From Boswellia sacra (Eukaryota; Streptophyta; Magnoliopsida; Sapindales; Burseraceae): a stretch of 64,000 bases of DNA. The notes below the pieces were generated by a model that saw only the letters and a program-made list of their open reading frames with translations, made no database searches and was not told where the DNA came from. This document shows positions 30,061 through 61,322 of the stretch, one piece after another (within the stretch, counting starts at the first letter, position 1; every line of letters begins with the position of its first letter). Location: assembly GCA_013180625.2 (NCBI GenBank), contig SNVD02007534.1, forward strand, positions 229,572 through 293,571, written 5' to 3'. Both the position numbers and the translations under genes were made by a program.

Positions 30061-30064
30061 AGCG

Positions 30065-30335: not shown

Positions 30336-30339
30336 TTAT

Positions 30340-37140: not shown

Positions 37141-37740
37141 CTACAAACAAAGCATCGGATCCATTTTGCACTTTTTGTTATGTCTCCTTAACCAATTAAT
37201 TTGAGTTGTTGCTTGGTCAGGTTCATGATCAACTGCTATAATTTGTCAAATAATTCATCAACAGTAGTGGCAAAAACAAAGATCCGTTGCACTGAGTGTG
37301 GGATAAAATTTTGTTCTATAGTTCATCAACAAAACGTAATAAAGGATCAAAGAAACTTTTAACATTCAACAAACCTACGGGTTTCTGATGGAGATTCAAT
37401 TGGGCCCAAGAGGCAATTTGAAAAATTTATTTGAAAGTACCAAAGCCACCTAGTAAACTAATAAAGGCATCCAAATTGATAAGCATATGCGCCATGCATT
37501 CATGCATAGATGAAACCCTTAACTATAGCCCAACTGTTTTCCTAATGATGCTTTCTAAAGCCAAAGCTCTAGGAATAACACCAAAAACTTGACTGCCTCT
37601 TAAGAGTATAGCTGTTAACACACACACTATTAACCCAAGGCTATCTCCCTCATAAACCAAACGAATCTTTCTCTAAGCTACTAGTTTACCAAGATCCACG
37701 ATAAAATACACATATCTTTTGGATTCGTTGAGCTAAGATT
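37141..37740 (-). pseudogene. LOG-like pseudogene of E5
   Basis: The minus strand is homologous to the E6 LOG gene from just after the start codon to the stop (TAG at 37143-37141). Matching blocks include KICVF near the start; VIPRALALESIIRKTVG; SSMHECMAHML; DAFISLLGGFGTF; IFQIASWAQLNLHQKPVGLL; and the tail with INWL and NKKCKMD. An internal deletion removed the region of the GGGxxGLMG loop, and several stops and frameshifts are present. The motif PGGxGTxxE is altered (LGGFGTF then K and a stop). At the start position the sequence is ATAGAG where E6 has GTGGAG. This gene follows the NABP-like pseudogene as in E6. Confidence 0.88.
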
Positions 37741-38064
37741 CCCTCTATGTCTAAACAACTCTCTAACTATGTGTGTGAAAATAGATAACAAGAGATGTCC
37801 TATTTATGGAGTGCAACAAGATATTGCAATGATAGTAGCTATATGGGTAGCTCAACTATTTGTTGAAAAAGTTTGAAAAAAAGAAACAAAAATAAAAAAA
37901 TGGCAAAAATAAACATAAAAATTACTACGTGCATGCAGAATGCAATCGAAAGGCAAAGATATAAATTAAAAAATGACAACAATAAGGAATAAAAATTCAA
38001 AAAAATGGTAGCGCACATGTATATATATAGGTAGTTATGACTGTGACTCGTATCTTCTTCTGGT

Positions 38065-38641
38065 TTTACGTTTAAAAAAGGCTCAAACACCTTCTATGAG
38101 TTGGGGATATGCTTACCATGTAGTTTTCTTATAAATTGGCAAACAAGGTCATTTAAAGTCAAATTCCCGAGACCATATTGTGCATGCTCATCTCGAAATT
38201 GGATCCATAGCTTCAAGATTTCATGTCACACAATTTCAAAAGGATACATCTTAAGAGTCAATAGGACATTGTCCAAAGACTCCCTACTCAGACCATTCTC
38301 GATGAATTGAAGCTTATCCTCTTGAATGTTAGACACAAATCCCAAATAGCGACAATGTTGGTTACAAGTCGATCTTGCACATTTGTAATAGACTTGTAAT
38401 CTTTTTGCTCTTCTCTTTTTGGTGTAAGAGCTTCTTCTTGAACCTAGCATATGAGAAACAAAACCATCTGGGGATTCGCAAGATAATTGGACCTTGGCTT
38501 CAATTAACCATCTTAAATCAGTAGAATACCCTTGTGTATTAGCATCCTTAGTTGCCCTACTCGTACTTTATAAATTTTAAGCAAATAATTGTGAGGAAGA
38601 GAGGGAAAATGGGCATTTAGATATGACAGAATGGTATCCAT
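38065..38641 (-). pseudogene. NABP-like accessory pseudogene of E5
   Basis: Homologous to the E6 gene at 52358-53041. The minus strand starts with ATG at 38641 (MDTILSYL), followed by FPSLPHN and LLKIYKV. A frameshift leads to DLRWLIEAKV, then to YTKKRRAKRLQVYYKCAR. After a TGA the C-terminal part continues with LWIQFRDEH and NDLVCQFIRK. The first cysteine of the motif is replaced by tyrosine. Nucleotide similarity continues past the stop (CGTAAAACCAGA shared with E6), so the two elements share descent over the whole cassette. Disabled copy. Confidence 0.85.
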
Positions 38642-39107
38642 TTGAAAAGAGAAGGAGAGAAGAAAATGAATGCAGAGTCAGCAACAGTTTTTAGGAATTG
38701 AAAAATCGACTTCAAAAGCCACAGAGCACCGTATCCACCACATGACTGGGAAACAAATAAAATAAAAACACAAAAAAAATAAAAGCACACAAAAGAAAAT
38801 AAAAACAAAATAGAAAATGATAGAAAAAATAGACAATAAAGACAAAAATATAAAATATGGTGTAGATAGATAAAACCTCATTAATCGTGATAGACAAGGG
38901 CAACAAGAAAAATCTCTTCAAAACTATAAAGTAATTTACCATGGTGAAAAATATGCCATTAAGTTTACTCCTCTCTTTTTCCTTTATTTGTGAGAATGGA
39001 ATAGATTACCATTGGTTAAGTTTGTTTATCCTTGAGGTATGTATGCTTTAGTGTGGATGTTTCTTCCTGCTACTTTTGAAAATGTGGCTCCTGACCCTTG
39101 TTCTCCT
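38642..39107 (-). other. Spacer between gag and NABP-like gene in E5
   Basis: Thymine-rich on the minus strand, like E6 52140-52350 at the same place. The overlapping phenylalanine-rich frames here are composition artefacts. No protease or pol remnant seen. Confidence 0.5.
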
Positions 39108-40745
39108 TCACCTATACAAAATCGAGGATGAACATTTTTTAGAAGCAATAGTCTCTAGTTGCATACTTGGTTCAAATGAACTAGTTAAACCGGTTTTTGA
39201 AAGACTAGAAAAATTCCCATTTTGAATAGAGTTTTCCACACTTGTTTCAGTCCCATCAGCTAGCTCATTTTCATCATGTTTGAAAAATTCATCAATTTCA
39301 AAATTTGAGTTAAGTTTCTTTACGTGATAAAAATGAGGGCATAGATGAGGATTCGGCCTCTTGCTTGTGAGATGTAGGTTCGTTAACCCTTTCCTTACGC
39401 TTTGAGATTGATCCATCATCTTTCTCGTAAGGTTTAGGAATGTGTTCTTCATCAGACCTTACCATCATGAAATGTACTGGCTGAATCTTGGCATAGATGT
39501 TGGCCACTTGAACTAGTCACATGTGGATTGATGGGGTCTGGCTCTAATTAAGATGGAAACTCATCTTTCTCATGAATGCTAAGTGCAAATGCAAGTTTTT
39601 CAAGAGTGTCATTCAAGTTTGCCATAGTTTGGGCAGTTTGACTATTAAAAACCTCTTGCTTTGCAATGAATGAATCCAATGTTTCTTCAAGATCCTCATA
39701 AGGTGCATGATCATGAGATTTTTTAAAATTTTGATACGATTGAAAAGGAGGCTCGGAAGATTGTGCATGATTATCATTCCTCCAATCAAAATTTGAGTGA
39801 TTTTCCCATCCAAAATTATAGGTTTGTGAGTAAGGATTAGGATTCGACCTTTGGAAATTGTTTAAAACAATGGTTTGTTCATAGAGAGTTTTCCTATAGG
39901 TAGGTACAATTGGGCAATCATTGATAGAATGATCACTAGTATTACAAGTGTGACAGATAATTTCTTGCATAGACCACATTTCTAAATCCTCGACTTTTCT
40001 AGCTAGGGAGGTAAATTTAACATGAAGATCATGATTTTCCTTAAGATTAAGAATGCCTCTACTAGATATTGTTGGTATGCCAACATTGTTCTAATTTGGG
40101 TATTTTGTGCTAGTAAGTCTAGGAAATCCATTGCTTCATCTGGATCTTTGTTTTCAAATTATCCATTACACATTAATTCTACCATTTTCCTATCTTGACA
40201 TCCTTGACCTTCATAGAATATAGAAACTAGTCTCCAAGTTTCCAAACCATGGTGAGTGCATGCATTGAGCAATGCTTTGTGCCTTTCATAACATTGGTAA
40301 AAGGTCTCTCATTGTTTTTGAGTGAAAGTAGTGTTTAGCCTTTTGAGAGAATTTGTTCTATAGGGAGGAAAGAATTTTTTTAGATATTGCTGTTGTATTT
40401 AATCCCATGAGCTAATGGACCCTGGCCTAAGATTTTGTAGCCATGTTTTAGCTTTATCTTTTAAAGAAAAAGGAAAAAGCTTTAATCTAAACATGTTTAT
40501 GCTACAATTTAGGTTACTATAGGTGTTACAAAACTCTTCAAATTCTCTCAAGTGCAAATATGGGTTTTGAACATCTCAGCCATGAAAGTGGGATAAGAAT
40601 TTAATGAAGTCTGATTCAATATTGAAATACATTGCATCATGAGGGAAGGCTATGCTTGATTGTGTATACGTTCTTATAGGATTAATGTAGTTTATTAATG
40701 TTCTAGGTTGGGTTTGAGCGTGTTTTCTAAGGAAGATGATGACCT
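39108..40745 (-). pseudogene. gag: gag of E5 (Athila-like), broken
   Basis: Minus strand: IAFPHDAMYFNIESDFIKFL near 40650, then NPYLHLREFEEFCNTY, RLKLFPFSLKDKAKTWLQNL near 40440, FFPPYRTNSL, and HHGLETW near 40240. This is the Retrotrans_gag capsid domain of the Athila type. The zinc knuckle CHTCNTSDHSINDC (C-x2-C-x4-H-x4-C) lies near 39960-39915. The rest (39900-39108) is a charged C-terminal region. Scattered stops and shifts make it a pseudogene. Unlike E6, which lacks the capsid domain, E5 keeps it and lacks protease. Confidence 0.8.
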
Positions 40746-40893
40746 CCTAACAAGTCTATACTCGATGCACGTGACCAAATTTTCATGCAATTTTAAAGAA
40801 AAAGGAAAGGAAAAAAATTAACATACAACACGAAAAATAAAGATCTAAACGAGAAACGGGAATACTTACAATTTTCTATGCTGAATTTTACCT

Positions 40894-40911
40894 TCCCCTG
40901 CAACGATGCCA
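40894..40911 (-). other. Primer binding site of E5
   Basis: TGGCATCGTTGCAGGGGA on the minus strand, six bases inside the 5' LTR. It fits the 3' end of plant tRNA-Asp with three mismatches and matches the E6 PBS with two. Confidence 0.75.
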
Positions 40912-40917
40912 AAAACT

Positions 40918-42295
40918 TGACACATCCAAATCGGATTATCTCCCTAGTATATGAGTGTTGAAATAATAAACCTGACAAGACTTGGGTTGATCCATAGGGA
41001 AGGAGATTTAGCGGTACCAACTAGAGGGTACGCAAATATAATATGAATAATTTACATAAATAACACGATAATATTAACAAATAAAAGTAAAGAGGGTAGG
41101 CGGTAAAACCAACCATGAAAATAGGAGGTGAAACCTACCATGGAAAATGAGAGAACAAGTTCATAAGCAATAAATGAAAATACTTAAAATTCACAATTAA
41201 GAAGAATTAACACAATAATAATGAAAGCTAAGGTTAAGGGATCTAGCCTCGATGAATTATATTTGTATCTTTGCCAATAGTTATACTACTTTTTGCAAAT
41301 GAGTTCAAGCATCCAATGTGTCAATCATCACATGTTTACAACAAATAAAGTTTCCTAACTAGACTTGTGTCATTAAGGAAGAACCATACGATATCTAGAA
41401 AGAATCTAAGCATTCGATGTGTCAAAGATTGATCAAGACCTCCACTCTATAAGTGGTGTCAAGACTGATTAAGAAAATAAATGTAAAACATATAAAATAA
41501 GCAACAAATGATTGTTATTATTATTAAGCACTTATTAAAGGATTAGAAAATCCATATTTCACCTTAGCAAGAGAGAACATATGAAGACATTATGCAAGAA
41601 AGAAATAAATTGCAAGAAGAAAAAGATTTATTAATAATATTAAAGGAGCAAAATATAAGAGAGAAAACGCAATGTTAAGAGATCCCAGCCAAGAGCCAAG
41701 ATGCCCTAATAGGCCATAATACACCTCTATTTATAGATACATTTGATGGCAAATTTATCAAATTATAAAGGAAAAATTTTTAAATATCTTGTTGACAATT
41801 TAGGCCATCATGTCCACCAACATTAACCACCAATTTCGGCATCAAAATATTTAGAATTTTGATCACATGTCTTCATAAAAGTTGTTGATATTTCTCTCAG
41901 CTTTCTATAACATTTGAATCATATGATTTTGATTCATATTTCAAGAGATATGATCAAAATACAGAGGCATGGCCAAGCTGGGCTAAAACTATAGATGGCT
42001 TCATTTCAAGCTCATTTTTGGTCCTCCAGATGCCCGAATTTCATGATGCTTGTGAATGTAATTTTGTAGAAGCTTTAATCAGCTTTGCAACAAATCAAGA
42101 TTTACACCATTTTGATGTATAAATAAAAAGTTATACCCATTCTAGTGAACTTGTATCAAAACTAAAATAAAGATAAAACGAATTCAAAAGATGCAAAAAC
42201 TATAGATATGCCTAAATTGAGGAATTTAATGACTCTATTAATGTAATATGATGAATTAAGCTCTTATTAAACATATACAATTTAAATTTTCATCA
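40918..42295 (-). repeat. 5' LTR of E5
   Basis: Plus-strand TGACACATCC to TTTTCATCA. TATA box TATAAATAGAGG on the minus strand at about 41724-41737. Confidence 0.85.
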
Positions 42296-47257: not shown

Positions 47258-47412
47258 GCTTGCCCCCTATGTTGGAGAAGTTTATAAGACACAAACATCG
47301 ACAAAGTACTATTGCTTTGTCCTTCCTCCTCTCATCTTGGCCTCTTTACCTTCATCTGCATTATGTTAGACTTCTCATCGTCCATTTTTCTCTTCAATTC
47401 CTACAAAAAAGA

Positions 47413-47690
47413 TGCGCCCACTCAACGGCTGATGTGCCCACTTAAGGGCTAATATGCCCACCCAAGGGTTGATGTGCCCATTCTATGGCTAGTGTGCTCA
47501 CTTAATGGTTGATGTGCTCACTCAAGGGCTGACGTGCCTACACAAGGGTTGATGTGCATCATTCTAATGCATGCAATGCACACTTCTAGTGCACACATGT
47601 GCATCCTTATGATGCACAATGTGCACTCTTCTAGTTTAGACAAATGCACTTTTCTAATGCATGAAGTGCATCCTTATGATGCTGAGATAA
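47413..47690. repeat. Tandem arrays of E7: 20-bp and about 66-bp types
   Basis: 47413-47553 has seven units of GATGTGCCCACTTAAGGGCT. 47553-47690 has units with TCTAATGCATGCAATGCAC and CTTATGATGCACAATG. Confidence 0.8.
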
Positions 47691-48065
47691 GACACTCTTT
47701 AGTATACCTACTTCCTGGGGTTTCTAACACTTTTCATGTAGACAAATGCATTCTTCCAATGCATGAAGTGCATCCTTACAGTGCTAAGATAATACACTCT
47801 TTAATGCACCTTCTTCCTAGGGTTTATAAGCACTCTTTAGTGCGCCTGTTCTAAAGGCTTGTAACACTCTTAAGTGTGCCTATTTTAAGGGCTTTCAACA
47901 CCCTTTAGTGTGCCTCTTCTTAGGGCTTATGTCTATTCTAAGGGTTTAAAACATTCTTAAGTGTATCTACTTCTTAGGGTTTTCAACACGCTTTGGTGCA
48001 ACTCTTCTTAGAGCTTGTGCCTATTCTAAGGGCTTAGAACACTCTTATGCACACTTACATCTTAG
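47690..48065. repeat. Tandem array of E7 (CACTCTTTAGTGCACCT units)
   Basis: About eight units of 40-50 bp with CTTCCTAGGGTTTNNAACAC and CTATTCTAAGGGCTT. Inverse of E1 8640-8940. Confidence 0.75.
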
Positions 48066-48460
48066 AGTTTCTTCTAATACATGCCCATCAAGAAAGCTTC
48101 TACCATGCACCAATTTGTGGTCCTTAGACCTTTTCATTCCTCCTGCCTTCGGTTGAGTATTCTTCTTTGATCTCTTCAAATTTTGTATTCGTTAGGTTTC
48201 ATGCCCTTCATCTAAGTATTCTTCATTCTTCTTTTATTGATTTCTTCCATTCCACGGGAGAAAAATCTTTGATTCATTATTCTTTACTCCCAATCTCTTC
48301 AGATTTTGCATTCATGGGATTCTCTACTAGGGGGTTCATATTAGGTTGTTGTTTGCTGAATTCACTAGGGATCTCTCTGCATTCATGGAAGAATTCATAT
48401 TAGGCTATTAAATCAATTCAAAATTTACCTCATGCGGTGTGTCCTCCAATAATGTACTTT
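48066..48460 (-). other. Conserved 3' segment of E7, up to the E6 insertion
   Basis: Inverse of E1 8160-8600. Ends in ACTTT (48456-48460), the E6 target site. Confidence 0.6.
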
Positions 48461-49875
48461 TAATAGGTGTTTATTTATGTATTACTTTCATATCAATTCG
48501 TCTATGTTTCTTTGCTATATTCCTTTGTATTTTTATGTTTTTGTGTGGTTTTGATGTTTGTAGGAGTTTTGGAGCAATTTGCACAAAAATGGAGTAAAAC
48601 CCTTCATTTTCACCTCTGCTAGTCAACCATCTTTTCGGATTTAATTGTATTGATATACAATGAACCCGATGACATGTTGTATACCGTTGGAAAGCTCTCG
48701 AAGTCTATTTTCTGGAGAAATTTACGGTTTATGAATCCATTCGGTGTACCAAAAGTTGTAATCAAAACAGTGTGAGAAGTGTAGAAATATAATTCCACAA
48801 ATCACTGTAGCATGTATAATACGGGGCACTGTAGCAGGTTACTGTAGCAGAGTATTTAAACACATTTTAGGGTTTTATTTGATAACTTGAAGAGGGGAGA
48901 ACATGGAGGAGGCTGCATCTTTGGATTTCTCTCATCTCTTAGAGTTCTTGAAGGAGATTGAAGGCTTGGAAAGAGGAAGAACTACAAATCCTAAGAGATT
49001 TCATCAGATTTGCTAAGTTTTTCATTTCCCTTTCATTTTCTGGAATTGCTATGTATTATATTGTATTTGTATTGTGTCTGAATATGTGTAACTAAATCTG
49101 AATTGGTTGAGGGTGATTTCAAAGCCCTTGATATGTTGTTTGTGAGTTGATTGTGCAAGAAATTATTATCCAATTCTCTAATTGAAGTTGCTTGTATTTT
49201 CCCATGTTTAATGCTTATGATTACTTGCTGATTGTATTTGGGTGGCCAATTGAATATAATCTGGATATTGTCTATTGCTAGACTAGAAATCTTGATCCGT
49301 AATTGTCTTGAATTTCTAATCATTAGTAGCAAAATTGTGATCAGAGATTGCAATTGGAGAATATAACCTAAGTTAAATAATCCGAGCTTGTGTGTTTATT
49401 GCTTAGATCAACCTGTCTTTCTTTTCGTAATGCATCCATTGAATTAAATTTAGAGAGCTTGTTCTAGGTTGTTTAATGGATAGAGATTAAATAAAGAGCC
49501 TGTTTTATTTAACAACAAAGTAAGGAAAGATTGGGATAACAGAGCTTTATTGTTATCTACGGTTGATAATTTCAGTGGTGTAATTGGATGATAATTCTAT
49601 AATTAATTCACAAATCCATATCTTGTGGTGGAGAATGATCCCTTAACCAGATTTCTATCATTGATTAATTCCCATTTCAATTAAGTTTGCATTGTGTTAT
49701 TCATTAATTACCGTCGTATTCAGTTTTTCATCTAGTTAATCAACCAACAAAACCCCTCATTTAGTTAATTGTTGCTAGAAATAACAAATCCAATTAGAAT
49801 CAATCCTCGTGGGAACGATTATTTATCACTTTATTACTTGTGCGACTAGTATACTTGCTAGTTTCGGACGCATCA
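48461..49875 (+). repeat. 5' LTR of E6
   Basis: From TAATAGGTGTTT (TGATAGGTGTCT in the other LTR) to GACGCATCA; 1415 bp. The ends are inverted (TGAT...ATCA). It is nearly identical to the joined 3' LTR. Confidence 0.92.
48804..48860 (+). promoter_or_regulatory. LTR promoter of E6: three ACTGTAGCA boxes and a TATA-like box
   Basis: ACTGTAGCA at 48804-48812, 48828-48836 and 48841-48849, followed by TATTTAAA at 48853-48860. The same arrangement is kept in the 3' LTR near 56656-56713. Binding proteins unknown. Confidence 0.6.
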
Positions 49876-49881
49876 AGTTTT

Positions 49882-49899
49882 TGGCGTCGTTGCTGGGGA
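49882..49899 (+). other. Primer binding site of E6
   Basis: TGGCGTCGTTGCTGGGGA, six bases after the LTR. It matches the complement of the plant tRNA-Asp 3' end with two mismatches, as is usual for Athila elements. Confidence 0.85.
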
Positions 49900-49990
49900 T
49901 TGATTTTCTAATCGATTTGTTATTTTGTTTTCATTGTTGATTCGTATTTTTTTTTTGTTTTTCTTTTCTGATTGTTTGTGTTTAGGCGAC

Positions 49991-52009
49991 ATGGCAGTAA
50001 ACTTCCAGCAATTCAGTAGTCGATTTGAGCCACAACTACATTGGAGAGTAAATGAGGTAAGCACTCCGAACATTGAACAACAACTTTCTGAGCTAACCTC
50101 TCTTGTGGAAAACATGGCTGTAGGACATATGCAGAAATCTTATGCATGTAGGGTATATTCTACCATGGAGCATCCAATGGACATGTATCCAACTTTACAA
50201 GAAAAAGATATGGAACAAGCCAATGCCATGGGTGGATTTTCAGGACAATCAAGGTAATGGTATGATCACTTCTCTAATACTTACAATGCCGGATGGATAG
50301 ATTACCCCAATTTTAGTTACGGGAATCATCAACCGATCGCCCCAAATGGCATACCAAATTTGCTGCAAGGTTTCAATCAACCTAGAGTGCAGCAAACATT
50401 TCAAATGCAACCACCACCAATGCCACATCCAACACCACAACCAGCTTCACAAAACTCAGGTATGTCTCTCCAGGATATTGTTAATGCACTTGCCACTAAC
50501 ACAATGCAATTCCAGCAGGAAATTGGGGCAAGTATCCAAAACCTGGCAAATAAAATGGGACAATTGGCTACTAGCATGAGCAAATTCGAGGGCCATGACT
50601 CAGAAAAATTATCTTCTCAAACAGTGATCAATCCAAGCGAGAATGCTAGTGCAATAACTTCGCAAAGTGGAGAGCAATTAGATGTCTTGCCAAGAAAATC
50701 ACAAACTGATGAAGGAGATGACACCACATCCACCATGAACAAAACATTGACTTCTCAGGTAAATCCTATAACTCCTATTCCTTCATATGTTACTCCTCCA
50801 CCTTTTCCTAGTAGATTGGCAAAATTGAAGAAGGAGGAACAAGAACAAGAAATCCTGGAAACTTCTCAAAAAATCGAGGTAAATATACCACTTTTGGATT
50901 CTATCGAGCAAGTACCTCATTATACAAAACGTCTCAAGGAGTTATGCACCAACAAGAGAAAGTTAAAAGGGAATGAGAAAGTAAGTATGGGGGAAAATGT
51001 TTCAACTGTACTACAAAGAAAAATTCCTCCGAAATGCAATGATCCAGGTACAGTCACCATTCCATGCACCATTGGTAAAACCAAGTTTGAAAGAGCTATG
51101 TTAGATTTAGGAGCATCTATTAATTTCATGCCATTTATTTATGCTTTTTTTAAATCTTGGACCTTTGCGAAAACTGGTATTACCATTCAGTTTGCTAATC
51201 ATTTTAATGCATATCCCAAAAGAGTTGTGGAAGATGTGCTTGTGTAGGTGAATCAAATGGTTTTCCCAGCAGACTTCTATGTACTTAAAATAGAGGATGA
51301 GACATCTCCTAATCCAACACCGATTCTTTTAGGGAGACCATTCTCGAAAACTGCTAGAACAAAGATTGATGTTCATGATGGCATTCTCACCATAGAGTTT
51401 GATAGCAAGGTTATCCGTTTCAATATTTTTGAGGCAATGAGGTACCCTAGTGACTTACATTCTGTTTTTGCAGTTGACGTTATTGATTCTTTGCCACAAC
51501 AATGTTTTGAGTTAACTTGCAAGAATGGATTGGATGTAGCTATTAGTGAGCACATAGGGACAGAAAATTCTAAGGAATCAAGAATTTTTATACAAGTGTC
51601 CAAACAAATGGAGGAAGTTGTGGCAAGCTTAGATGAGATCATAGCTATAACCACAAACAGGTATGATGTTTTGTACATTGAATTGCCTTTATCTAATGAG
51701 AAACTTCTTCCTTTTGTGATGAAAGCCAATACCTTAGAGCTTAAGTCACTGCCAGATCATTTGAATCATGGATTCTTGTGTGAGAATGATACTTTGCCAG
51801 TTACAATGGAAATGGGCCTTGCACGAATACAAGAAGAGAAACTCGTCCGAATACTTACAGATCACAAAATAGCTATTGGGTGGACGATTGCTAACATCCA
51901 AGGCCCAGCCATATGCATGCACCAATTCTTGTTGGAAAAAGGATCCAAGCCCACTAGAGAAGCACAGCGGAGATTGGACCCCCCCATGATGGAACCAACG
52001 TCGGGCTGA
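49991..52009 (+). pseudogene. gag-pro: gag-protease of E6, two in-frame stops, cut at the start of RT
   Basis: One reading frame starts at ATG 49991 (MAVNFQQF). It continues through a TAA (50255-50257) and a TAG (51245-51247) to 52009. The capsid domain is missing. The zinc knuckle near 50140-50190 has lost two of three cysteines (C-x2-Y-x4-H-x4-Y). A proline/glutamine-rich stretch follows. The protease region holds MLDLGASINFMP (catalytic D at 51103-51105; DLGAS is usual for Athila) and PILLGRPFSKTARTKIDV. The frame then enters the pol linker (LPDHLNHGFL, HKIAIGWTIANI) and stops right after EAQRRLDPPMMEP, the first conserved block of RT. Here pol is deleted up to the post-integrase region. 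Gag forms the particle; protease cleaves the polyprotein. Confidence 0.88.
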
Positions 52010-52357
52010 GGATGTTAAACCAAGTGCTTATTGGGAGGCAACCCAATGTTTTTGAAAAATAAATAAAAGAAAAGAAAAGAAAAATAAAATCAGGTAATAA
52101 TGATCGATTTTTGTGTCTCGAGGAGATTCCTTTAGTAGGCCATCAAATTAATCAGGTTTTATCTCTCTTTGTCATCTGTCTTATTTGTCTTTTATATTTG
52201 TTTTTTTACTTGTTTTTGACTTTTGTTTGCTATTGTGTTGTTATCTCTTTCATGTGTCTTTAGTTTCGTTTCTGCTCTTTTCTTTTCCTTCCTTTTGTTT
52301 AATTTTATTATTCCGTACTCCGAATTCATTTCTGCAACAGCTTGAGGAAACATCCAA
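52010..52357 (+). other. Post-pol spacer of E6 with a short hairpin
   Basis: Starts with TTGGGAGGCAACCCAA (52031-52046), a perfect 5-bp stem. From memory, this sequence follows integrase in Athila-type elements, which places the deletion end just after integrase. The rest is T-rich and non-coding. Confidence 0.6.
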
Positions 52358-53041
52358 ATGGGAGCTGAAGTCATTGCTCAAAGGTTTGAAACGTGCATAT
52401 CTTGGAGAAAAACAAACCCGATCGCATTATCGGTAATATCTCTTCTTTTCTCCTCTTCAATGGATGCTGATATCTTTCTATCGAACCTTTGTAAATATTT
52501 CCCTTCACTTCCTCAAAATGCTGTGTTTAAAATTTATAAAGTACAGATGACTAGACTTTGGGCGTTGATGCTCCTAAATGTGCCTGCAGATATCCGATGG
52601 CTTATCGAAGCCAAGGTGAGATTGTCCGGTGAGCCGGACATTAATCTCGCAAAATACATGCCGGGTCAAGGAAAGAGCTACTACGCCAAGAGGCGAAGAG
52701 CGAAAAGGTTACAAGTATGTTATAAATGTGCTAGATGGAATTGTAACCAGACTTGTCGTTCATTAGGTTTTGCGTCCAGGAATAGAGAAGATAAACTTTC
52801 ATTTATTAAGAATGTTTTGAGTAATGAGTCGCTGGATAATGTTTTGTTAACTCTCGAGTCACATTCTTGTGGACTTGTTCAGCGTGAATTGCTTAATCTA
52901 TGGACACAATTTCGTGATGAATTGCAGTGTTATAGTCTAGGAAATCTGACTAAAAACGACCCTGTTTGCCAGTTTATAAGAAACTGGATGGGAAGCAAAT
53001 CCCCGACTCATAGAAGGCGTTTCAGCCGTTACTGGACGTAA
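52358..53041 (+). CDS. Small basic Cys-motif protein, carlavirus NABP-like (accessory ORF 1 of E6)
   Basis: Uninterrupted 227-codon frame from ATG 52358 to TAA. The second ATG at 52460 (residue 35, MDADIF) may be the true start, because the E5 homologue aligns from exactly that Met; this would give 193 residues. Visible features are FPSLPQN (48-54) in a likely helical N-terminal part, a basic run KRRRAKR (111-117), and right after it a compact cysteine motif C-x2-C-x4-C-x3-C (121-133). A C-terminal region with LWTQFRDE and VCQFIRNWM follows. The order basic run then cysteine motif recalls the nucleic-acid-binding proteins of carlaviruses, although the cysteine spacing is tighter. Nucleic-acid binding is therefore plausible, not shown. 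It lies where Athila elements can have an env-like gene; no signal peptide or membrane segment is evident. The homology to E5 38065-38641 is certain; the viral link is tentative. Confidence 0.75.
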   Translation: MGAEVIAQRFETCISWRKTNPIALSVISLLFSSSMDADIFLSNLCKYFPSLPQNAVFKIYKVQMTRLWALMLLNVPADIRWLIEAKVRLSGEPDINLAKYMPGQGKSYYAKRRRAKRLQVCYKCARWNCNQTCRSLGFASRNREDKLSFIKNVLSNESLDNVLLTLESHSCGLVQRELLNLWTQFRDELQCYSLGNLTKNDPVCQFIRNWMGSKSPTHRRRFSRYWT

Positions 53042-53237
53042 AACCAGAGGAAGATGTGAGCCACAATCACAACTACTTGTATATTTGAATGTGTGTTGTT
53101 GTTGTCGAATTTTATTTTTGTTTCATTTGATCTGATTATCATGTTGTTTTTGCGTTGTTGTTGTTTGTTGATTTTGTTTGTTTTAATTTCAAGTTTTCTT
53201 TTTGACAAACCATATGACTACCCCATGATATAAGCAC
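53042..53237 (+). other. Intergenic spacer, T-rich
   Basis: Between the NABP-like stop and the 67-bp array. The first 50 bp are also conserved in E5. No other signal seen. Confidence 0.5.
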
Positions 53238-53505
53238 ACGTGGGAGACAAGTGTGGAGGCTTTGTCAACCTCCGCCGAAAGTATATCTTTACTTTTCATG
53301 CTTCACGTGGGAGACAAGTGTGGCGGTTTTGTCAAACTCCGCCGAAAGTATATCTCCATTTTTCATGTTTCACGTGGGAGACAAGTGTGGCGGTTTTGTC
53401 AAACCCCGCCGAAAGTATATCTCCATTTTTCATGTTTCACATGGGAGACAAGTGTGTAGGTTTTGTCAAATCTCGCCGAAAGAATATCTAATTTTTTTCA
53501 AATCT
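53238..53505 (+). repeat. 67-bp tandem array with G-boxes upstream of LOG
   Basis: Four units start at 53238, 53305, 53372 and 53439, at an exact 67-bp spacing. Each has ACGTGGGAGACAAGTGTGG, then an inverted pair GGCGG...CCGCC around TTTTGTCAAA, then GAAAGTATATC. CACGTG (G-box) is intact at the first three unit starts (53237, 53304, 53371) and mutated to CACATG in the fourth. Overlapping frames across the array are a product of the repeat. Confidence 0.92.
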
Positions 53506-53552
53506 TGGGGCGATAAATCTGCATCGAGCAACCTCCACCGAAATTATGTCCC

Positions 53553-53589
53553 CACGTGTCAAATTTGAGAGTTTTACGTGTGTATATAT
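53553..53589 (+). promoter_or_regulatory. Possible promoter of LOG: G-box and TATA-like box
   Basis: A further CACGTG at 53553-53558 and ACGTG at 53576-53580 precede TATATAT at 53583-53589, about 107 bp before the LOG frame. Together with the G-box array this looks like a promoter separate from the LTR. Inference; no transcript data. Confidence 0.5.
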
Positions 53590-53695
53590 CCATTCTCCAT
53601 ATTTTCAAATGTCATTATTATAACCTGTCTTGCACTTGAAAAGCATATTACCTAACATTCATCATTGTCTTACACAAGGTTGAGCACTTGTAGAA

Positions 53696-54346
53696 GTGGA
53701 GAAAACACCAATTCGGCGATTCCAAAATATATGTGTATTTTGTGGATCGCAATTTGGTAAAGATGGAGAGTTTACAACAACAGCTCTTGATCTTGGTAGG
53801 ACATTAGCTGCGAAGGGTATTCATTTGATTTATGGAGGGGGTAGTCTTGGGTTAATGGGGTGTGTGTCGATAGCTGCATCCTTGGGAGGGAGTAAAGTTC
53901 TCAGCATTATCCCTAAACCATTAGCTGTGCGAGATATCATAGGCAACACAATGGGGGAAGAGTTACAGGCCTCTAGCATGCATGAGCGTATTGCACATAT
54001 GGTCATTAAATCTGATGCATTTATAGCTTTGCCGGGTGGTTATGGTAAATTAGAGGAGATATTTCAAATCACCTCTTGGGCACAGCTAAACATCCATCGG
54101 AAACCCATCGGTTTGTTAAATGTCAATATTTTTTTTAATGGTTTGTTGTCTTTTCTTGATCAAGCAGTAGAAAAAAACTTCATCTCACAGTCGGCAAGGC
54201 AAATCCTAGTTACAGCTTCAACTGTAGAGGAGTTAATTGACAAATTACAAGCATTCGTCTATTCGCCTGATCCAACAATAGATCCAATAGATTGGTTTGC
54301 GGAAGGCAATAAAAAGCGTAAACTGGATTTAACGCTAAGCCTGTAA
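53696..54346 (+). CDS. LOG-like: LOG-type cytokinin riboside 5'-monophosphate phosphoribohydrolase (accessory ORF 2 of E6)
   Basis: Uninterrupted frame of 216 residues, about the usual LOG length. The family releases active free-base cytokinin from its nucleotide in the cytosol. Visible: FQNICVFCGS (9-18), nucleotide loop GGGSLGLMG (47-55), IIPKPL (71-76), MHERIAHM (95-102, conserved Arg 98), PGGYGKLEE (113-121), and WAQLNIHRKPIGLLNV. The motif PGGxGTxxE has Lys at the Thr position, so activity is uncertain. The first codon is GTG, not ATG. The frame is closed upstream by TGA at 53681-53683, and the first in-frame ATG is residue 54, inside the nucleotide loop. E5 has ATA at the same place, so an ancestral ATG was probably lost in both, or translation starts otherwise. 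The gene lies inside the LTRs of E6, downstream of the NABP-like gene. Confidence 0.88.
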   Translation: MEKTPIRRFQNICVFCGSQFGKDGEFTTTALDLGRTLAAKGIHLIYGGGSLGLMGCVSIAASLGGSKVLSIIPKPLAVRDIIGNTMGEELQASSMHERIAHMVIKSDAFIALPGGYGKLEEIFQITSWAQLNIHRKPIGLLNVNIFFNGLLSFLDQAVEKNFISQSARQILVTASTVEELIDKLQAFVYSPDPTIDPIDWFAEGNKKRKLDLTLSL

Positions 54347-56312
54347 TCTTCATCTACTAGTTTGCTTCACTTTTGTTTGCTTTCTTTTTATTGTGTTTAT
54401 TTGAGATTTTTCATGTTATTTCTTTTGAGCTTTTTCAGGTTATTTCTTTCGTTCCAGGTAATATTTTCTAATCTTGCCTTTTAGAGTGGTGGCTTAAAAA
54501 GTTCAAGTTCTCTTGAAACGCATTTTGGATTTCTTTAATCCATAATGGCTGAATAGGGAGGCTAACTTCTAAACTTTTTAGATCCATTCTAACTGAATTG
54601 TTTTTGTTTGCTGACTTGTTGGACTTTGTTATTTTATGAGTAAGTTTAGTTTTATGTAATTTAGAGTTGTTATGTGTTTTTGTCTTTATCAGTTTCGATT
54701 CAAAAAAAAATTTGTGGAAAAAACTTGAGAATGGCAGAATATGGGGTTTCTTTAACCCTTGAAACGCATTCTCTCTAAATAAATCTGTAGTTTCTTTATT
54801 TCAGTTGTTTGAAGTGTCTTGTTTCTTTTTTTGTTCTTTCATAATAAAGGTATATAGGCTGGAAACCTTAAGTCTGCGGGCTACTGGTCCTAAGGATTGT
54901 TGAAATATACAATCTTGACTCAGGTGTAACAATGCCAAGTACCTCTTTTCTTGCATTTTGTGGGTCAATGATAAGATAATGATTGAATTAAGAATAACTC
55001 TTGGAAAATGATAAATGATGCATGGATCTGTGGCTTGAAATGTTTATTGGTTTTCGCTTTGCCTTTGATTCCTTGTGCAACATTGAGCACTGAGCTATTA
55101 TCACTGAGTTATTTGTTCACTTAGAGAAAGTTTATGTAATTTAAATGTTTCTTCAGATTTCAATGAATTCTAGAACTTGTTTGATGGTCACTCGAGGCGA
55201 AATCCTAGACTGTGCAACATTGGGGAAATGATTTAGGCCATCTTTGGACCGTTTGAGCCTTAATAGCCAACCTTGATTGAAATTGATCCCTAGTTACCCC
55301 TTTGAGCCTCTTGTAAGCCTTTTTTTTTGTTAACTCACTAAAAGATTTCCTAACCTCAAATGAATTTTTTTTTTTCCAAACAGTTTGTCCCTTACCTATG
55401 AGCATGTAGATCATTCACGATGACATTTGAGCTATGTTTTGGTTTTGGGAAGTTAGAGGAGGTTGGATTGTGCCATGAGCAATGCAAGTGAGTTTTATTG
55501 TGTTTGTAAAAAAAAAAAAAACAATCTGTCTTATCTTCCATGTACTTAAACATTGAGGACAATGTGTTGTTTAAGTGTGGGGGAAGAGAATTGCAGTTAA
55601 AGAAAAAAAAAAGAAAAAAACGAAAAAAAAAGAAGAAAAAAAAGAAAACAGATCTATACCCTTAAGTGTTCTTGAAAAGAATGAAACAACAAAGTGTGGG
55701 GGTGTAGTTTCTTTTGTGTTAAAAAAAATAATAAAATGAGAGATTGAGTATTTTGAATAAGTTTGGGGGAGTAACCGGTTGAATTGAAATAAGTTTTGTT
55801 ATGAGGGTTGAGCTCCACATAGTCCTGAATGATTTATGTGTTTGTAGGTGATTTCATCCAAATTATTTTCCTTTATCATATCTTCACCCAAGCCAAAGGT
55901 TACAAGCTTAATAAAGTCATACTTGATCCTTGATGTTGTGCATGTCTACATTAGTGGAGAGTGACTTGAAAAGCAGGCCTATAGAGTTCATTTATACACA
56001 CATCTTCACTACTAAATATGATTCATTTTTATGCATAAACTCATCTGGGTTACAAGTGATTAGGTGAGAATGGCTCTACACACACACACTTGAGGAATTG
56101 AAGTGAAGCGAAACTAATCTTTGAGATAAAATTCTTGATCAAGTGCATTATTTTGAAGTTTTCCTTGGGTTATAATTAAGTACAATCTTTGAGGCCTATT
56201 TGCAAGTGAAGCATTTGTGTGTTTTAATTTTTTTTGATTCTGTTTCGGTTTAGTTTTGTTTCATATCGTTGTAGTTGCTCGAGGACTAGCAAAGTTTAAG
56301 TGTGGGGGAATT
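54347..56312 (+). other. 3' non-coding region of E6
   Basis: T-rich, then purine-rich. The word AGTGTGGGGG recurs near 55575 and 55692, with a TTTGGGGG variant near 55762, and the last copy near 56299 is the PPT. 55180-56160 is the segment shared with E2 and E3. A CACACACACA run lies near 56078. No gene seen. Confidence 0.65.
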
Positions 56313-57071
56313 TGATAGGTGTCTATTTATGTATTACTTTTATATCAATTCGTCCATGTTTCTTTGCTATATTCCTTGGTATTTTTATGTTTTTGTGTGG
56401 TTTTGATGTTTGTAGGAGTTTTGGAGCAACTTGCACAAAAATGGAGTAAAACCCTTCATTTTCACCTCTGCTAGTCAACCATCTTCTCGGATTTAATTGT
56501 ATTGATATACAATGAACCCGATGACATGTTATATACCGTTGGAAAGCTCTCGAAGTCTATTTTCTGGAGAAATTTACGGTTTATAAATCCATTCAGTGTA
56601 CCAAAAGTTATAATCAAAACAGTGTGAGAAGTATAGAAATATAATTCCACAAATCACTGTAGCATGTATAATACGGGGCACTGTAGCAGGTTACTGTAGC
56701 AGAGTATTTAAACACATTTTAGGGTTTTATTTTGATAACTTGAAGAGGGGAGAACGTGGAGGAGGCTGCATCTTTGGATTTCTCTCATCTCTTAGAGTTC
56801 TTGAAGGAGATTGAAGGCTTGGAAAGAGGAAGAACTACAAATCCTAAGAGATTTCATCAGATTTGTTAAGTTTTTTATTTCCCTTTCATTTTCTGGAATT
56901 GCTATGTATTGTATTGTATTTGTATTGTGTCTGAATATGTGTAACTAAATCTGAATTGGTTGAGGGTGATTTCAAAGCCATTGATATGGTGTTTGTGAGT
57001 TGATTGTGCAATAAATTATTATCCAATTCTCTAATTGAAGTTGCTTGTATTTTCCCATGTTTAGTGCTTAT

Positions 57072-57820
57072 TGTCACGAGCTTAGAGTTTAGCGCAGCTG
57101 CTCGTGCGGTACTTAGGCAACTTGAACCCGAAAGTTGCTAAGTAAGCCTTGTAGTGTGCTTCTCGCTCAAGGAGAAGTTAGGACCGTTGAGCTAAGAGCT
57201 TTAAGGCGACGAGAAGAGAAGTGTGGGAAGATTTGCAACAAGTGTTGCTAGAAAGGAAAGCTTTGGTATTACTTGAGAACTCTTTATAAAGCTTATATGA
57301 AACTTGGCTTGATTTTCTGGGATGCCTCACAAATGAGCCTAGGAGGGGTATTTATAGTAATCCACCTCCTCAATGGACGGCTAGGATTTGTTACATCTAA
57401 CGGTCCATATTTCCTATCTAGAATCATCTCCCTAAATATCTAGATATTTATCCTAAAATATCTAAGATATTTCCATGGAAGTTTCTAGCAACTTGGCTTG
57501 CTAGATAATTCTAGACCTTCTAGGACCTTCCGTAGCCTTCCACATTCTTCCGCAACCTTCTCGAGTCTTCTAGAGACTTCTAGAGTCTTTCGGATGCATC
57601 TCACGACTTCCGGATCCTTCCGGATCTCTCTGGAATGTCCCGGAACGTTACAGAATCTTCTAGAAGCTTCCGGATCACCGCGTCTACTCTTCGCGCCATT
57701 GAGTTCCTCTCGACACGAGGATCCCAAATCACCATCACACTTGCCCTAAATTCCCATTCCTTGGCATTCTTCCGAGCAAGCTTGGCGTGATACAGTGCGC
57801 ATGTCGCGCGGGGCGTGACA
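57072..57820 (-). repeat. 3' LTR of E9
   Basis: 749 bp. TATA box (TATAAATA on the minus strand) at 57349-57356. The U3 (57480-57700) is crowded with TTCTAGA, CTTCCGG and GGAAC words. Confidence 0.93.
57653..57670 (-). promoter_or_regulatory. Perfect four-unit heat-shock element in the E9 3' LTR
   Basis: GAATCTTCTAGAAGCTTC is four alternating GAA/TTC units at exact 5-bp spacing, about 300 bp upstream of the TATA box on the minus strand. The identical site in the 5' LTR is 60486-60503. Confidence 0.75.
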
Positions 57821-58930
57821 TCCTCCCCCACCTAATTTCGCGACGTCCTCGTCGCGTCTTGGAGGATGGGTCATTGGTTGCGAGTGAGTGGTCTTGGCTC
57901 CATGTTGACGCTTCCCTCTCGCGTGCTTGCATGGCTTCTTGGTGGCCTTCTTTAGCTTTGCGATCTTGGATGGCGTCATGTGGTGAGGCGTTGTGGATGG
58001 AGGTTTGGCATTGGGCTCCGACTTGATTTGGTGAGCCTCTTGTCTTGGCGGTAGCCTCCTTGGTAGCCTTTGGGATGTAACATCCTTGTGCTTCTCCTTG
58101 ACTTGCCGTGGTACTGAGTTTTTGGCAACAACGATGTTCTTCCTATCGTTTCGCTCCCGAACGTTGGCAAGGAGGTTCAGATCCTTCCTTGTTCCTTGCA
58201 TAAGTTGTAGTGCGGACATTGTCTTGCTCTCGACCTTGACTGTATGTTCCGCCATAACCGAACATGATTGGCTCCCATCGAGGATGTTGAGGGAGTTAGA
58301 TGCTGGTATGAGGAAGGCATGGGCTTGGTCAAAGAACTCCATGCCAAGCACTACTTCGAAATCGTCCATGGAGACGATGGAGAAATCTAGCTTGCCACTC
58401 CACGTGCCAAGTCGTACCGAAGTCGCCTTGGACACTGCCAAGATTGCCTTGGCGGGTGACTTTACGGCCTTGATCATACCTCTACCATGGGTATACTTGA
58501 GGCCTATCCGCTTGGCCTCTTCTACGGAAATGAAGTTGTGCGTGGCTCCCGTGTCAAGCATCGCACGCACATCCTTGCCATTAACAGTGGCATTCACGTA
58601 CATGAGACCCTTATTGGCATGTATGGGTCTTTTGAGTGCACCGATGACGTGAAGAGAACCTATCTCCGCTTGAGGTTCTCCATCTTGTGCGCCCTCACAT
58701 TGAGCCGCTAAGGCATTGAGGGTCTTTTTCTTTGGACAATCTCGTGTCCAATGAGGGCCATCACAAATGAAACAAGGACTCTTAGGCTTGGGGACATTGG
58801 ACTTACCTTTGCTAGGTTTGTCGCGCTTGTCGCCCCTCGAAGCTTTGCGAGCACCTTCCTTGTTGCTTTGGTCCTCTTCGACAATCCGCTCTCCCCCACC
58901 ATTATTATGGTCGGTCTTCCATGGCTTGGA
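57746..58930 (-). pseudogene. pro: Zinc knuckle and protease of E9, in frame with gag after one stop
   Basis: The minus strand continues the gag frame after TAA. Near 58775-58735 it encodes a zinc knuckle CFICDGPHWTRDC (C-x2-C-x4-H-x4-C). From 58603 an open stretch of 285 codons starts with MYVNATVNGK and holds the aspartic protease motif LDTGATHNFIS, then VVLGMEFFDQ. A long basic tail rich in Lys, Arg, Pro and His follows and runs into the LTR, ending at 57746. No RT, RNase H or integrase follows. Apart from the single stop at 58931-58933 the gag-protease frame is intact, so the stop is either a recent mutation or is read through. Confidence 0.85.
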
Positions 58931-59869
58931 TTAGGACGTATAGTCCGTAAGGGATTCGGCCGCAGCTATGGCTTCATCAAGGTTTTGTACGCCACGCCTC
59001 TCGAGCTCAACCCTTGCCCAATCCTTTAGCCCGTCGAGGAAGAAGAAGAGAGAGTCCTTGTCTGACATATCCTCAATCTCAAGGATGATGGTGGTGAACT
59101 CCTTGATGTAATCCTGGATGGTGCCACTTTGTTTTAGACGACGGAGGCGACCCCTTGCCTCCTTTTCCGCATTGCGTGGGGAGAAGTGCTTTCGAAGCTC
59201 CCTTTTAAAGTCCTCCCATGTGCGGAGAGAACAAATGCCCTTGCCCGCGTCGCCATGTTTGCGACGCCACCACAATTGGGCAGCATCCCGTAGGAATGTG
59301 GGCGCAATACCGATTCTTGATGCATCGTCGTGGGCACCCTTGGCCTCGAAGTATTGCTCAAGGCCGAACAAGAAGTTCTCCACTTCGGTGGCATTGCGGG
59401 CACCATGGTAAGAAGCAGGAGTAGGCACTTGCATAGCACTGAGTGGGCTAGCACTTGTGTAGGATGTGCTAGCTTGATCGCAACGACGCCTATCCCATTC
59501 CGTGCGAACTTCCTCTACTTCCGCACGAAGAGCCCACAATTCAAGCTCCACGAAGTTCCGTAAGCCATGGAGTTCTCGTGTAAGGGCCTGAAGCTCGTCC
59601 ATGTAGGACTTGCTACACTCAAGGATGCTGGACTTTGTGGCTTGAGTAATCTCCCCATAGTCCATCTCTAGGCCATCAAGACGGTTGGTGAGACCTTCAA
59701 TCACATTGTCCATCCCCGAGATGGTTTCCTCCATACTAGCAACACGAAACTCCAAGACTTCGGCAGGCGGAGCTTTCGACTTGCCACGCTTGGCTCGTGC
59801 TTGTGGTTGAACTTGCTCCTCGCGTCCGCGTACTTGTTCTTCTACCGCCACTTCAATGTCGGATGCCAT
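58931..59869 (-). CDS. gag: gag of E9
   Basis: 312 codons from ATG 59869 (MASDIEVAVEEQ) to TAA 58931-58933. The N-terminal third is charged and probably coiled coil (ISGMDNVIEGLTNRLDGLEMD and following heptads, about residues 45-140). The Retrotrans_gag capsid domain covers about residues 165-300, with AAQLWWRRK, TWEDFKRELRKHF, LKQSGTIQDYIKEF and LEIEDMSDKDSLFFFLDGL. It forms the virus-like particle. The start lies about 35 bp inside the PBS end, as expected. Codon use is GC-rich, unlike the neighbours. The stop separates it from the knuckle and protease, which follow in the same frame. Confidence 0.9.
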   Translation of the reverse strand: MASDIEVAVEEQVRGREEQVQPQARAKRGKSKAPPAEVLEFRVASMEETISGMDNVIEGLTNRLDGLEMDYGEITQATKSSILECSKSYMDELQALTRELHGLRNFVELELWALRAEVEEVRTEWDRRRCDQASTSYTSASPLSAMQVPTPASYHGARNATEVENFLFGLEQYFEAKGAHDDASRIGIAPTFLRDAAQLWWRRKHGDAGKGICSLRTWEDFKRELRKHFSPRNAEKEARGRLRRLKQSGTIQDYIKEFTTIILEIEDMSDKDSLFFFLDGLKDWARVELERRGVQNLDEAIAAAESLTDYTS

Positions 59870-59890
59870 TTGCTCTTGTGCTCGAACCGT

Positions 59891-59902
59891 GCTCTGATAC
59901 CA
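59891..59902 (-). other. Primer binding site of E9
   Basis: TGGTATCAGAGC on the minus strand, two bases from the 5' LTR: the usual PBS for initiator tRNA-Met. Confidence 0.92.
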
Positions 59903-59904
59903 AC

Positions 59905-60653
59905 TGTCACGAGCTTAGAGTTTAGCGCAGCTGCTCGTGCGGCACTTAGGCAACTTGAACCCGAAAGTTGCTAAGTAAGCCTTGTAGTGTACTTCTCGCT
60001 CAAGGAGAAGTTAGGACCGTTGAGCTAAGAGCTTTAAGGTGACGAGAAGAGAAGTGTGGGAAGATTTGCAACAAGTGTTGCTAGAAAGGAAAGCTTTGGT
60101 ATTACTTGAGAACTCTTTATAAAGCTTATATGAAACTTGGCTTGATTTTCTGGGATGCCTCACAAATGAGCCTAGGAGGGGTATTTATAGTAATCCACCT
60201 CCTCAATGGACGGCTAGGATTTGTTACATCTAACGGTCCATATTTCCTATCTAGAATCATCTCCCTAAATATCTAGATATTTATCCTAAAATATCTAAGA
60301 TATTTCCATGGAAGTTTCTAGCAACTTAGCTTGCTAGATAATTCTAGACCTTCTAGGACCTTCCGTAGCCTTCCACATTCTTCCGCAACCTTCTCGAGTC
60401 TTCTAGAGACTTCTAGAGTCTTCCGGATGCATCTCACGACTTCCGGATCCTTCCGGATCTCTATGGAATGTCCCAGAACGTTACGGAATCTTCTAGAAGC
60501 TTCCGGATCACCGCGTCTACTCTTCGCGCCATTGAGTTCCTCTCGACACGAGGATCCCAAATCACCTTAACACTTGCCCTAAATTCCCATTCCTTGGCGT
60601 TCTTCCGAGCAAGCTTGGCGTGATACAGTGCGCATGTCGCGCGGGGCGTGACA
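59905..60653 (-). repeat. 5' LTR of E9
   Basis: 749 bp; TATA box TATAAATA (minus strand) at 60182-60189. Confidence 0.93.
60486..60503 (-). promoter_or_regulatory. Perfect four-unit heat-shock element in the E9 5' LTR
   Basis: GAATCTTCTAGAAGCTTC, identical to 57653-57670, about 300 bp upstream of the TATA box of the promoter that would drive E9. Confidence 0.78.
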
Positions 60654-61322
60654 TTATGATTACTTGCTGATTATATTTGGGTGGCCAACTGAATATAATC
60701 TGGATATTGTCTATTACTAGATTAGAAATCTTGATCCGTAATTGTCTTGACTTTCTAATCATCAATAGCAAAATTGTGATCAGAGATTGCAATTGGAGAA
60801 TATAACCTAAGTTAAATAATCCGAGCTTGTGTGTTTATTGCTTAGATCAACCTGTCTTTCTTTTCGTAATGCATCCATTGAATTACATTTAGAGAGCTTG
60901 TTCTAGGTTGTTTAATGGATAGAGATTAAATAAAGAGCCTGTTTTATTTAACAACAAAGTAAGGAAATATTGGGATAATAGAGCTTATTGTTATCTACGG
61001 TTAATAATTTCAATGGTGTAATTGGATGTTAATTCTATAATTAATTCACAAATCCATATCTTGTGGTGGAGAATGATCCCTTAACCAGATTTCTATCATT
61101 GATTAATTCCCATTTCAATTAAGTTTGCATTGTGTTATTCATTAATTACCGTCGTATTTAGTTTTTCATCTAGTTAATCAACCAACAAAACCCCCCATTT
61201 GGTTAATTGTTGCTGGAAATAACAAATTCAATTAGAATTAATCCTCGTGGGAACGATATCTTGCTTATCACTTTATTACTTGTGCGACTAGTATACTTGC
61301 TAGTTTCGAACGCATCAACTTT

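Follow-up and report, generated by a model that had tools for sequence, protein, structure and literature searches.

In the relevant passages of PMC9289625, gypsy elements with a YgdH/LOG domain are reported from two Citrus species and, when no filter is applied, from P. trichocarpa, a result which the same text calls 'in line with' a 2011 survey (Steinbauerova et al.). The presence of LOG, a family of cytokinin-activating enzymes, in Ty3/gypsy long terminal repeat (LTR) retrotransposons is therefore already known. The 2011 survey reportedly contained two Athila-like elements with similarity to LOGL4. A different extra gene, ORF-1 (PF03078), is found in 16% of Athila elements, and is thus not required, according to the Athila passages of PMC6317226. 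The locus described here lies in a 64,000-nucleotide stretch of Boswellia sacra DNA (contig SNVD02007534.1, positions 229,572 to 293,571, forward strand), referred to as the window. It contains element 1, a defective LTR retrotransposon in which a gene for a virus-like nucleic-acid-binding protein (NABP) is followed by a LOG-like gene. It is near certain that the system is a Ty3/gypsy family, probably Athila-type, with NABP, often also with a captured LOG. The family carries a putative accessory module (NABP, often LOG) in place of the env-like gene. The cassette recurs in a second element of the window, NABP has many matches in plants, and an NABP-only version is found on contig DAIEQH010000041.1 (hereafter L001).

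Element 1 and its two extra genes

The features of element 1 are listed in window coordinates, with the basis of each call in brackets (TSD, target-site duplication; PBS, primer-binding site; ORF, open reading frame; RT, reverse transcriptase).

48456..48460, TSD ACTTT, left copy (read from sequence)
48461..61317, +, element 1, defective Ty3/gypsy LTR retrotransposon (paired LTRs plus TSD)
48461..49875, +, 5' LTR
49882..49899, +, PBS-like 18-mer TGGCGTCGTTGCTGGGGA just 3' of the 5' LTR (sequence)
49992..51247, +, degenerate gag/protease region (ORF 50360-51247 closed by a stop)
51248..52009, +, remainder of protease, then first RT-region residues (by eye)
52460..53041, +, NABP gene, Viral_NABP/Carla_C4 homolog, basic run then CX2CX4CX3C (Pfam, alignments)
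53011..53081, +, conserved 71-nt block at and 3' of the family NABP stop position (alignment)
53237..53497, +, 67-bp tandem repeats separating NABP and LOG
53696..54346, +, LOG-like gene, 216 codons, C-terminus KKRKLDLTLSL (Pfam)
56313..57071, +, 3' LTR, first part
57072..60653, -, nested LTR element in the 3' LTR (LTRs, ORFs, Pfam)
60658..61317, +, 3' LTR, second part
61318..61322, TSD ACTTT, right copy (read from sequence)

The open frame of NABP spans 52358-53041, and its ATG start at 52460 was placed by alignment with relatives. It matches PF05515 (Viral_NABP) at 2.4e-9 (37.9 bits, cutoff 23) and PF01623 (Carla_C4) at 2.6e-5 (24.5 bits, cutoff 20.9). Of four control sequences made from the NABP relative P0001, the three run against Pfam (one reversed, two shuffled) gave no NABP match; the reversed sequence hit an unrelated family at 0.001, under that family's cut-off. 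Relatives are 48-67% identical to the window frame. PF05515 is recognised in 44 of 49 aligned relatives, and PF01623 likewise in 44 (E<=0.01). Across these 49 rows 11 columns are invariant. The four cysteines are present in 46, 49, 49 and 46 rows, respectively, and KKRRAK, the basic run, hardly varies. The final ~15 codons of the element 1 gene are out of frame relative to the family C-terminus, RKLDGKPIPDP; an RKLDGK-like motif is kept in 55 of 115 NABP matches, many of which are shorter pieces. Comparison of element 1 with L001 over 169 codons (NG86) gave an amino-acid identity of 66%, dN of 0.285, dS of 1.75 and dN/dS of about 0.16; this one comparison shows purifying selection on the predicted gene. 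A predicted NABP fold (AlphaFold; mean pLDDT 62.7, pTM 0.35) was too weak for a fold search, a PDB sequence search with the NABP profile returned a single match at E 0.39, and a scan of IMG/VR with NABP found none.

The LOG frame matches PF03641 at 1.3e-34 (119.6 bits, cutoff 27) and, by sequence, the solved chain 2a33 (At2g37210, LOG3) at 7e-62. It lacks an ATG start: GTG stands at the ATG position of the relatives, and no in-frame ATG occurs before codon 54, which is one. The frame reads PGGYGK at the PGGxGT position, and its C-terminus, LDLTLSL, has the LxLxL form.

Element 1 measures 12857 bp, or 9271 bp when the nested insert and the duplicated TTAT are subtracted. Paired LTRs with a TSD of 4-6 bp, by which LTR retrotransposons are recognised, are present in both element 1 (ACTTT) and element 2 (ATTAG). 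The LTR pair of element 1 shows 42 differences (34 transitions, 8 transversions) in 1414 gap-free columns, a Kimura two-parameter (K2P) distance of 0.030. The PBS-like 18-mer is presumably of the tRNA-Asp type, and we take the region 49992..52009 to be gag, protease and RT, a region in which no Pfam match rose above cut-off. The NABP frame opens only 349 bp beyond 52009, which leaves no space for RT, RNase H (RH) and integrase (INT). A gag-pol with RT, RH and INT is absent from both window copies, neither having room for it between gag and NABP. We infer an Athila-type placement for element 1. The nested element has 749-bp LTRs with 11 differences between them, a duplication TTAT at its flanks (read by eye) and gag- and protease-type ORFs (Pfam); its other ORF of at least 120 aa is one 188-aa antisense frame. 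The GC content of its core (58001-60000) is 0.52, against 0.38-0.40 in adjacent 2-kb bins.

An earlier, sequence-only reading had placed the element at 48461-61317 with TSD ACTTT, and its boundaries proved exact, the duplications lying at 48456-48460 and 61318-61322. The LTRs that it called intact are not: the 3' LTR is split by the nested element, and the 5' LTR opens with TA instead of TG. What it called gag-protease has degenerated, and its ORF 50360-51247 is closed by a stop. The two frames described as uninterrupted are indeed open, and the first has the basic run and cysteine motif attributed to it; neither is an intact gene, given the out-of-frame NABP tail and the missing LOG start. 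The proposed profile search, when run, matched PF05515, PF01623 and PF03641, all above cut-off. The LOG frame, which it credited with all major LOG blocks, has PGGYGK in place of PGGxGT. The implied working copy was not found: element 1 is dead and non-autonomous, with defects in gag-pro, in pol and in each of the two extra genes.

Recurrence of the gene pair and a conserved block beside NABP

A second, older element carrying both genes lies on the opposite strand of the window.

34088..42295, -, element 2, older LTR element with gag, NABP and LOG (tblastn, LTRs, TSD)
42296-42300 and 34083-34087, TSD ATTAG of element 2
40918..42295, -, 5' LTR, then PBS-like TTTTTGGCATCGTTGCAGGGG
39548..39979, -, gag-type ORF, 143 aa, with CHTCNTSDHSINDCP knuckle (ORF; gag naming by eye)
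38094..38641, -, NABP, frame-broken (tblastn with NABP relative, match at 38647-38106, 61%)
37726-37150, -, LOG, frame-broken (tblastn with LOG relative, pieces 61, 57, 43%)
34088..35801, -, 3' LTR, with about 290 extra nt

The LTRs of element 2 differ from each other at a K2P distance of 0.177 (130 transitions and 80 transversions of 1346) and give no match to the LTRs of element 1. The two insertions, with unrelated LTRs and a TSD each, are independent, and both contain the NABP-LOG pair in identical order. No pol was found in element 2, where the ~900 bp between the gag-type ORF and NABP are too short for it.

The contig L001, found in a scan of genome contigs, is filed under a Candidatus Nomurabacteria metagenome-assembled genome (MAG); since it carries an apparent plant retrotransposon, it is probably a plant contaminant of that MAG. 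It encodes a 466-aa ORF with Integrase_H2C2 and rve, after which comes an NABP ORF that is intact. No LOG-type frame was found in L001 before the 3' ACATTGAGGACAATG region common with element 1, and the contig stops at 3330. NABP can therefore also stand with no LOG next to it. The L001 integrase gave no match to elements 1 and 2 at E<=1e-3, and its rve and Integrase_H2C2 domains indicate that relatives, not the window copies, carry pol. The integrase ORF has no RNase H Pfam match, with ~80 residues between the RH end (by eye) and H2C2. The presence of an aRH domain marks Tat, and its absence is expected for the Athila clade, in the clade descriptions of PMC6317226.

Homologs of NABP number 115 proteins at E<=0.001, with Populus, Xanthoceras, Acer, Orobanche, Striga and Citrus among the named hosts. 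A LOG-type Pfam domain (PF03641 or PF18306) is present in 14 of the 115; some of these derive from assembled genomes, where separate genes may have been joined in one model. Reading these proteins as true NABP-LOG fusions was set aside, as the models may bridge two frames, and they were used as adjacency evidence only. The relatives P0001 (NABP) and P0120 (LOG) have the same longest contig size listed, 8,723 bp. Among the best 120 of 7841 LOG matches, the names include Xanthoceras, Reevesia, Diplodiscus, Populus, Melia, Rehmannia and Pterospermum. The named hosts of NABP and LOG matches, most rows being nameless, are all eudicots. In P0117 (Xanthoceras), a stretch like the element gag-pro linker lies between two LOG pieces, at an E of 0.06 only. 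Scanning IMG/VR with LOG returned 25 loci at 24-33% identity.

A 71-nt block at and 3' of the NABP stop position is identical at 66 of 71 positions between element 1 and L001 (2345-2415), against 73% over the whole aligned stretch; the binomial probability of this excess is 2e-5 to 2e-7, assuming mismatch rates of 0.27 and 0.33. It is still recognisable in element 2, near 38096-38025 (-). The block is more conserved than the NABP coding sequence. An RNA element, a readthrough signal and a DNA target are candidates for what it may be. Its RNA folding z-scores are -1.0 (element 1) and -1.8 (L001), and the best structures differ. One apparent compensatory pair, CUAG/CUAG in L001 and CUGG/CCAG in element 1, is lost in the decayed element 2, and because of this an RNA structure is only a lead. 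A protein-coding reading of the block was rejected, as 3 of the 5 positions at which L001 and element 1 differ would alter the amino acid (by eye). A 22-mer from the block gave 0 matches in IMG/VR.

Elsewhere in the window, 42294-43028 (-) and 25480-26159 (+) resemble the 3' non-coding region of element 1 and lie outside elements 1 and 2, which suggests further relatives or tandem or nested elements. A long inverted pair, 30001-32658 and 45213-48148 (~71-80% alike), is possibly two more elements in opposite orientation on either side of element 2.

Tail and adenine site of element-type LOG proteins

Element-type LOGs, the best 120 of the 7841 matches, were compared with host LOGs, the best 120 of 7998 matches found with Arabidopsis LOG3 and mainly of the LOG1/LOG3 group. 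The sets differ at the C-terminus. LxLxL occurs in the last 14 residues of 96/120 element-type LOGs and 0/120 host LOGs (2.8% of shuffled element tails), and a basic run in the last 30 residues of 111/120 and 1/120, respectively; both features together are found in 93/120 and 0/120. We take LxLxL to be a form of the EAR repression motif and KKRK to resemble a nuclear localisation signal (NLS), so that the tail can be described as NLS/EAR-like.

Another difference lies in the active site. R98, G117, T118 and E121 are all intact in 105/120 element-type and 120/120 host LOGs. In 120/120 host LOGs the catalytic Arg is followed by K, whereas in element-type LOGs the following residue is I, L or M in 106/120, K in 13 and T in 1. 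This K99 was equated by motif with CgLOG Lys100, which contacts adenine in the structural passages of PMC4979012. In the mutagenesis passages of the same paper, alanine changes at AMP-binding and catalytic residues of CgLOG nearly abolish activity, S19A excepted. Among the 13 element-type rows with K99, 11 are without the LxLxL tail.

A tree of 150 LOG rows separates 118 element rows from 31 host rows by one branch (100/98). Its rows are the window LOG, 114 of the 120 element-type LOGs (6 of more than 230 aa being left out), three fusion pieces, and 30 of the 120 host LOGs plus a LOG8 segment; its bootstrap is unsettled, some branches are long, and one bacterial row is ungrouped. Seven of the 8 K-bearing element rows in it sit nearest the host side, P0177 being the exception. 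Residues are shown for 8 of 12 aligned fusion-type matches: five from Orobanche carry N or S in place of the catalytic Arg, which is L in P0102 and a gap in P0097, and P0086 keeps R and lacks E121. The Orobanche fusions P0046 and P0052, despite loss of the catalytic Arg, still end in LDPLDLSL. Three Populus proteins named LOGL10 (P0148, P0203 and P0112) group with element-type LOGs, and P0112 joins NABP and LOG pieces; judged by this grouping, they may be retrotransposon genes and not host LOG genes. Because the adenine-site lysine is lost in 106/120, cytokinin production is a less secure reading than that of a LOG fold turned nuclear host-manipulating factor.

Possible roles of the module and comparison with known systems

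It is on balance probable that NABP and LOG manipulate the host in trans, in its nucleus, in live relatives. NABP would be a nucleic-acid binder that weakens silencing or alters the transcription programme, like the carlavirus protein CVB p12, the nearest studied NABP found. Passages of PMC7588395 describe p12 as a nuclear transcriptional activator and cytoplasmic silencing suppressor, and it is said in part of PMC12172455 to cause hyperplasia. The tailed LOG would have a nuclear role, in which it would raise the local level of active cytokinin or, with altered or no catalysis, recruit TOPLESS-type corepressors. In either role LOG would work in the same direction as NABP, towards cell division or a relaxation of silencing, under which new insertions could become heritable. 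Several points weigh against manipulation in trans. Element 1 cannot make either family-type protein, and the NABP-only elements (L001) mean that the pair is not obligatory. The 'element' label of LOG matches was given by similarity, not from surrounding DNA. LxLxL is a short motif through which TOPLESS binding is only predicted, and 24/120 element-type LOGs are without it, including most Xanthoceras rows and their nearest kin. The dN/dS of NABP comes from a single pair near synonymous saturation. A bolder version, which we think improbable, is that the lineage built an oncogene-like module of a viral-type nuclear zinc-finger protein and a LOG-derived corepressor recruiter without ordinary cytokinin-nucleotide binding; such a module would relieve silencing or hold cells proliferative, under the control of the conserved RNA/DNA element beside NABP.

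The encoded LOG could instead be an ordinary cytokinin-activating enzyme, with local cytokinin sustaining division in the meristem and thereby letting new insertions pass to progeny. PGGxGTxxE and the catalytic Arg/Glu are kept in the 105/120 rows noted above, most K99-bearing rows lie nearest host LOGs, and the window frame matches LOG3 (2a33) at 7e-62; set against the replaced lysine, invariant in host LOGs, and the loss of the catalytic Arg or E121 in fusion-type LOGs, these points leave an ordinary enzyme rather unlikely. Plant LTR elements capture gene pieces, and both window copies are broken, as would be expected if LOG and NABP hitch-hiked without benefit to the element. Such passive transduction seems distinctly unlikely in view of the NABP dN/dS in that one pair, the 11 invariant columns in 49 rows, the RKLDGK-like motif in 55/115 and the cassette order kept in two elements with unrelated LTRs. 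Equally doubtful is self-restraint, in which an EAR-tailed LOG and NABP would bind and repress the element's own DNA or RNA and so limit host damage: the EAR-like tail, the neighbouring nucleic-acid-binding gene and the 71-nt block as a possible cis target fit it, but the interaction and the block binding are predicted only, and NABP occurs without LOG. The homology to Viral_NABP/Carla_C4 might also stem from a carlavirus that recently became endogenous and happened to insert within an LTR element. This is very improbable and is contradicted by element 2 and L001, which with element 1 hold the same gene in the same place, two of them with unrelated LTRs; no other virus gene was seen beside NABP, and the family is deeply divergent (48-67% identity).

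Manipulation of the host in trans, the reading we prefer, would make the module a plant counterpart of retroviral accessory genes, composed of a virus-type regulator and a hormone enzyme, and would open the purpose of additional genes in plant LTR elements to experiment. Annotation is also concerned: some of the 'LOGL10'-type and hypothetical LOG models (Populus, Reevesia, Diplodiscus, Xanthoceras, Citrus) possibly belong to transposons, with consequences for studies of the LOG gene family. The common NABP raises the question of gene exchange, in either direction, between RNA viruses and retrotransposons.

With respect to the family as a whole, the sequence-only reading had described one element and missed the second NABP-LOG element (34088-42295, -), nor did it notice the conserved NLS/EAR-like tail. 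Its lineage with a two-gene cassette in the env-like position is upheld by element 2, by the 14/115 NABP matches and by the equal contig size of P0001 and P0120, and L001 shows NABP after integrase, without LOG. Its condition for refutation, that the frames occur in no other LTR element, is countered by element 2, which has its own TSD. That the element raises cytokinin agrees with the catalytic Arg/Glu of most relatives, but is weakened by the lysine lost in 106/120. Its statement that no family with this pair had been described holds for the NABP pair in the literature examined, but not for LOG alone. Term searches of the main texts of PMC7264820 and PMC11963269 found no LOG, cytokinin, carlavirus or nucleic-acid-binding cargo, and 'lonely guy' had no match in the text of PMC6317226. 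Of the papers examined, PMC9289625 is the only one to mention LOG/YgdH in LTR elements. The NABP partner, its separate occurrence, the LOG tail and the lysine changes are absent from the text examined.

The closest described systems each share part of this arrangement. The Citrus and Populus gypsy elements with YgdH are likewise LTR retrotransposons with a LOG-family ORF, for which the section 12 text names neither an NABP partner nor a C-terminal tail. Phalaenopsis gypsy elements with an AlkB-type m6A demethylase likewise hold a host-type enzyme as an extra ORF; the enzyme is different, and the passages concerned mention no NABP partner (PMC9289625). Athila elements with ORF-1 (pfam03078) have, in the portion of PMC6317226 that describes them, an extra ORF between pol and the 3' LTR, and L001 similarly shows the integrase directly followed by an extra ORF. 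The extra ORFs of elements 1 and 2 and of L001 are NABP/LOG, unlike ORF-1, and PF03078 gave no match in element 1 or L001. Carlavirus and mandarivirus cysteine-rich NABPs such as CVB p12 likewise have a nuclear-localisation-type basic run and a zinc-finger motif (passages of PMC7588395 and PMC12172455). The element NABP, compared with virus NABPs by Pfam only, is retrotransposon-borne and ~182 aa long, with its own N-terminal region and the C-terminal RKLDGKPIPDP; the viral gene sits at the 3' end of a flexivirus genome and the element gene between LTRs instead, so it may work like a virus gene but is not one. Plant LOG1/LOG3 are likewise of the PF03641 family, with PGGxGTxxE and, as in most element relatives, the catalytic Arg/Glu. 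Unlike them, the frame described here lies inside LTRs and belongs to a group in which the adenine-site Lys is replaced in 106/120 and a basic plus LxLxL tail is present in 93/120.

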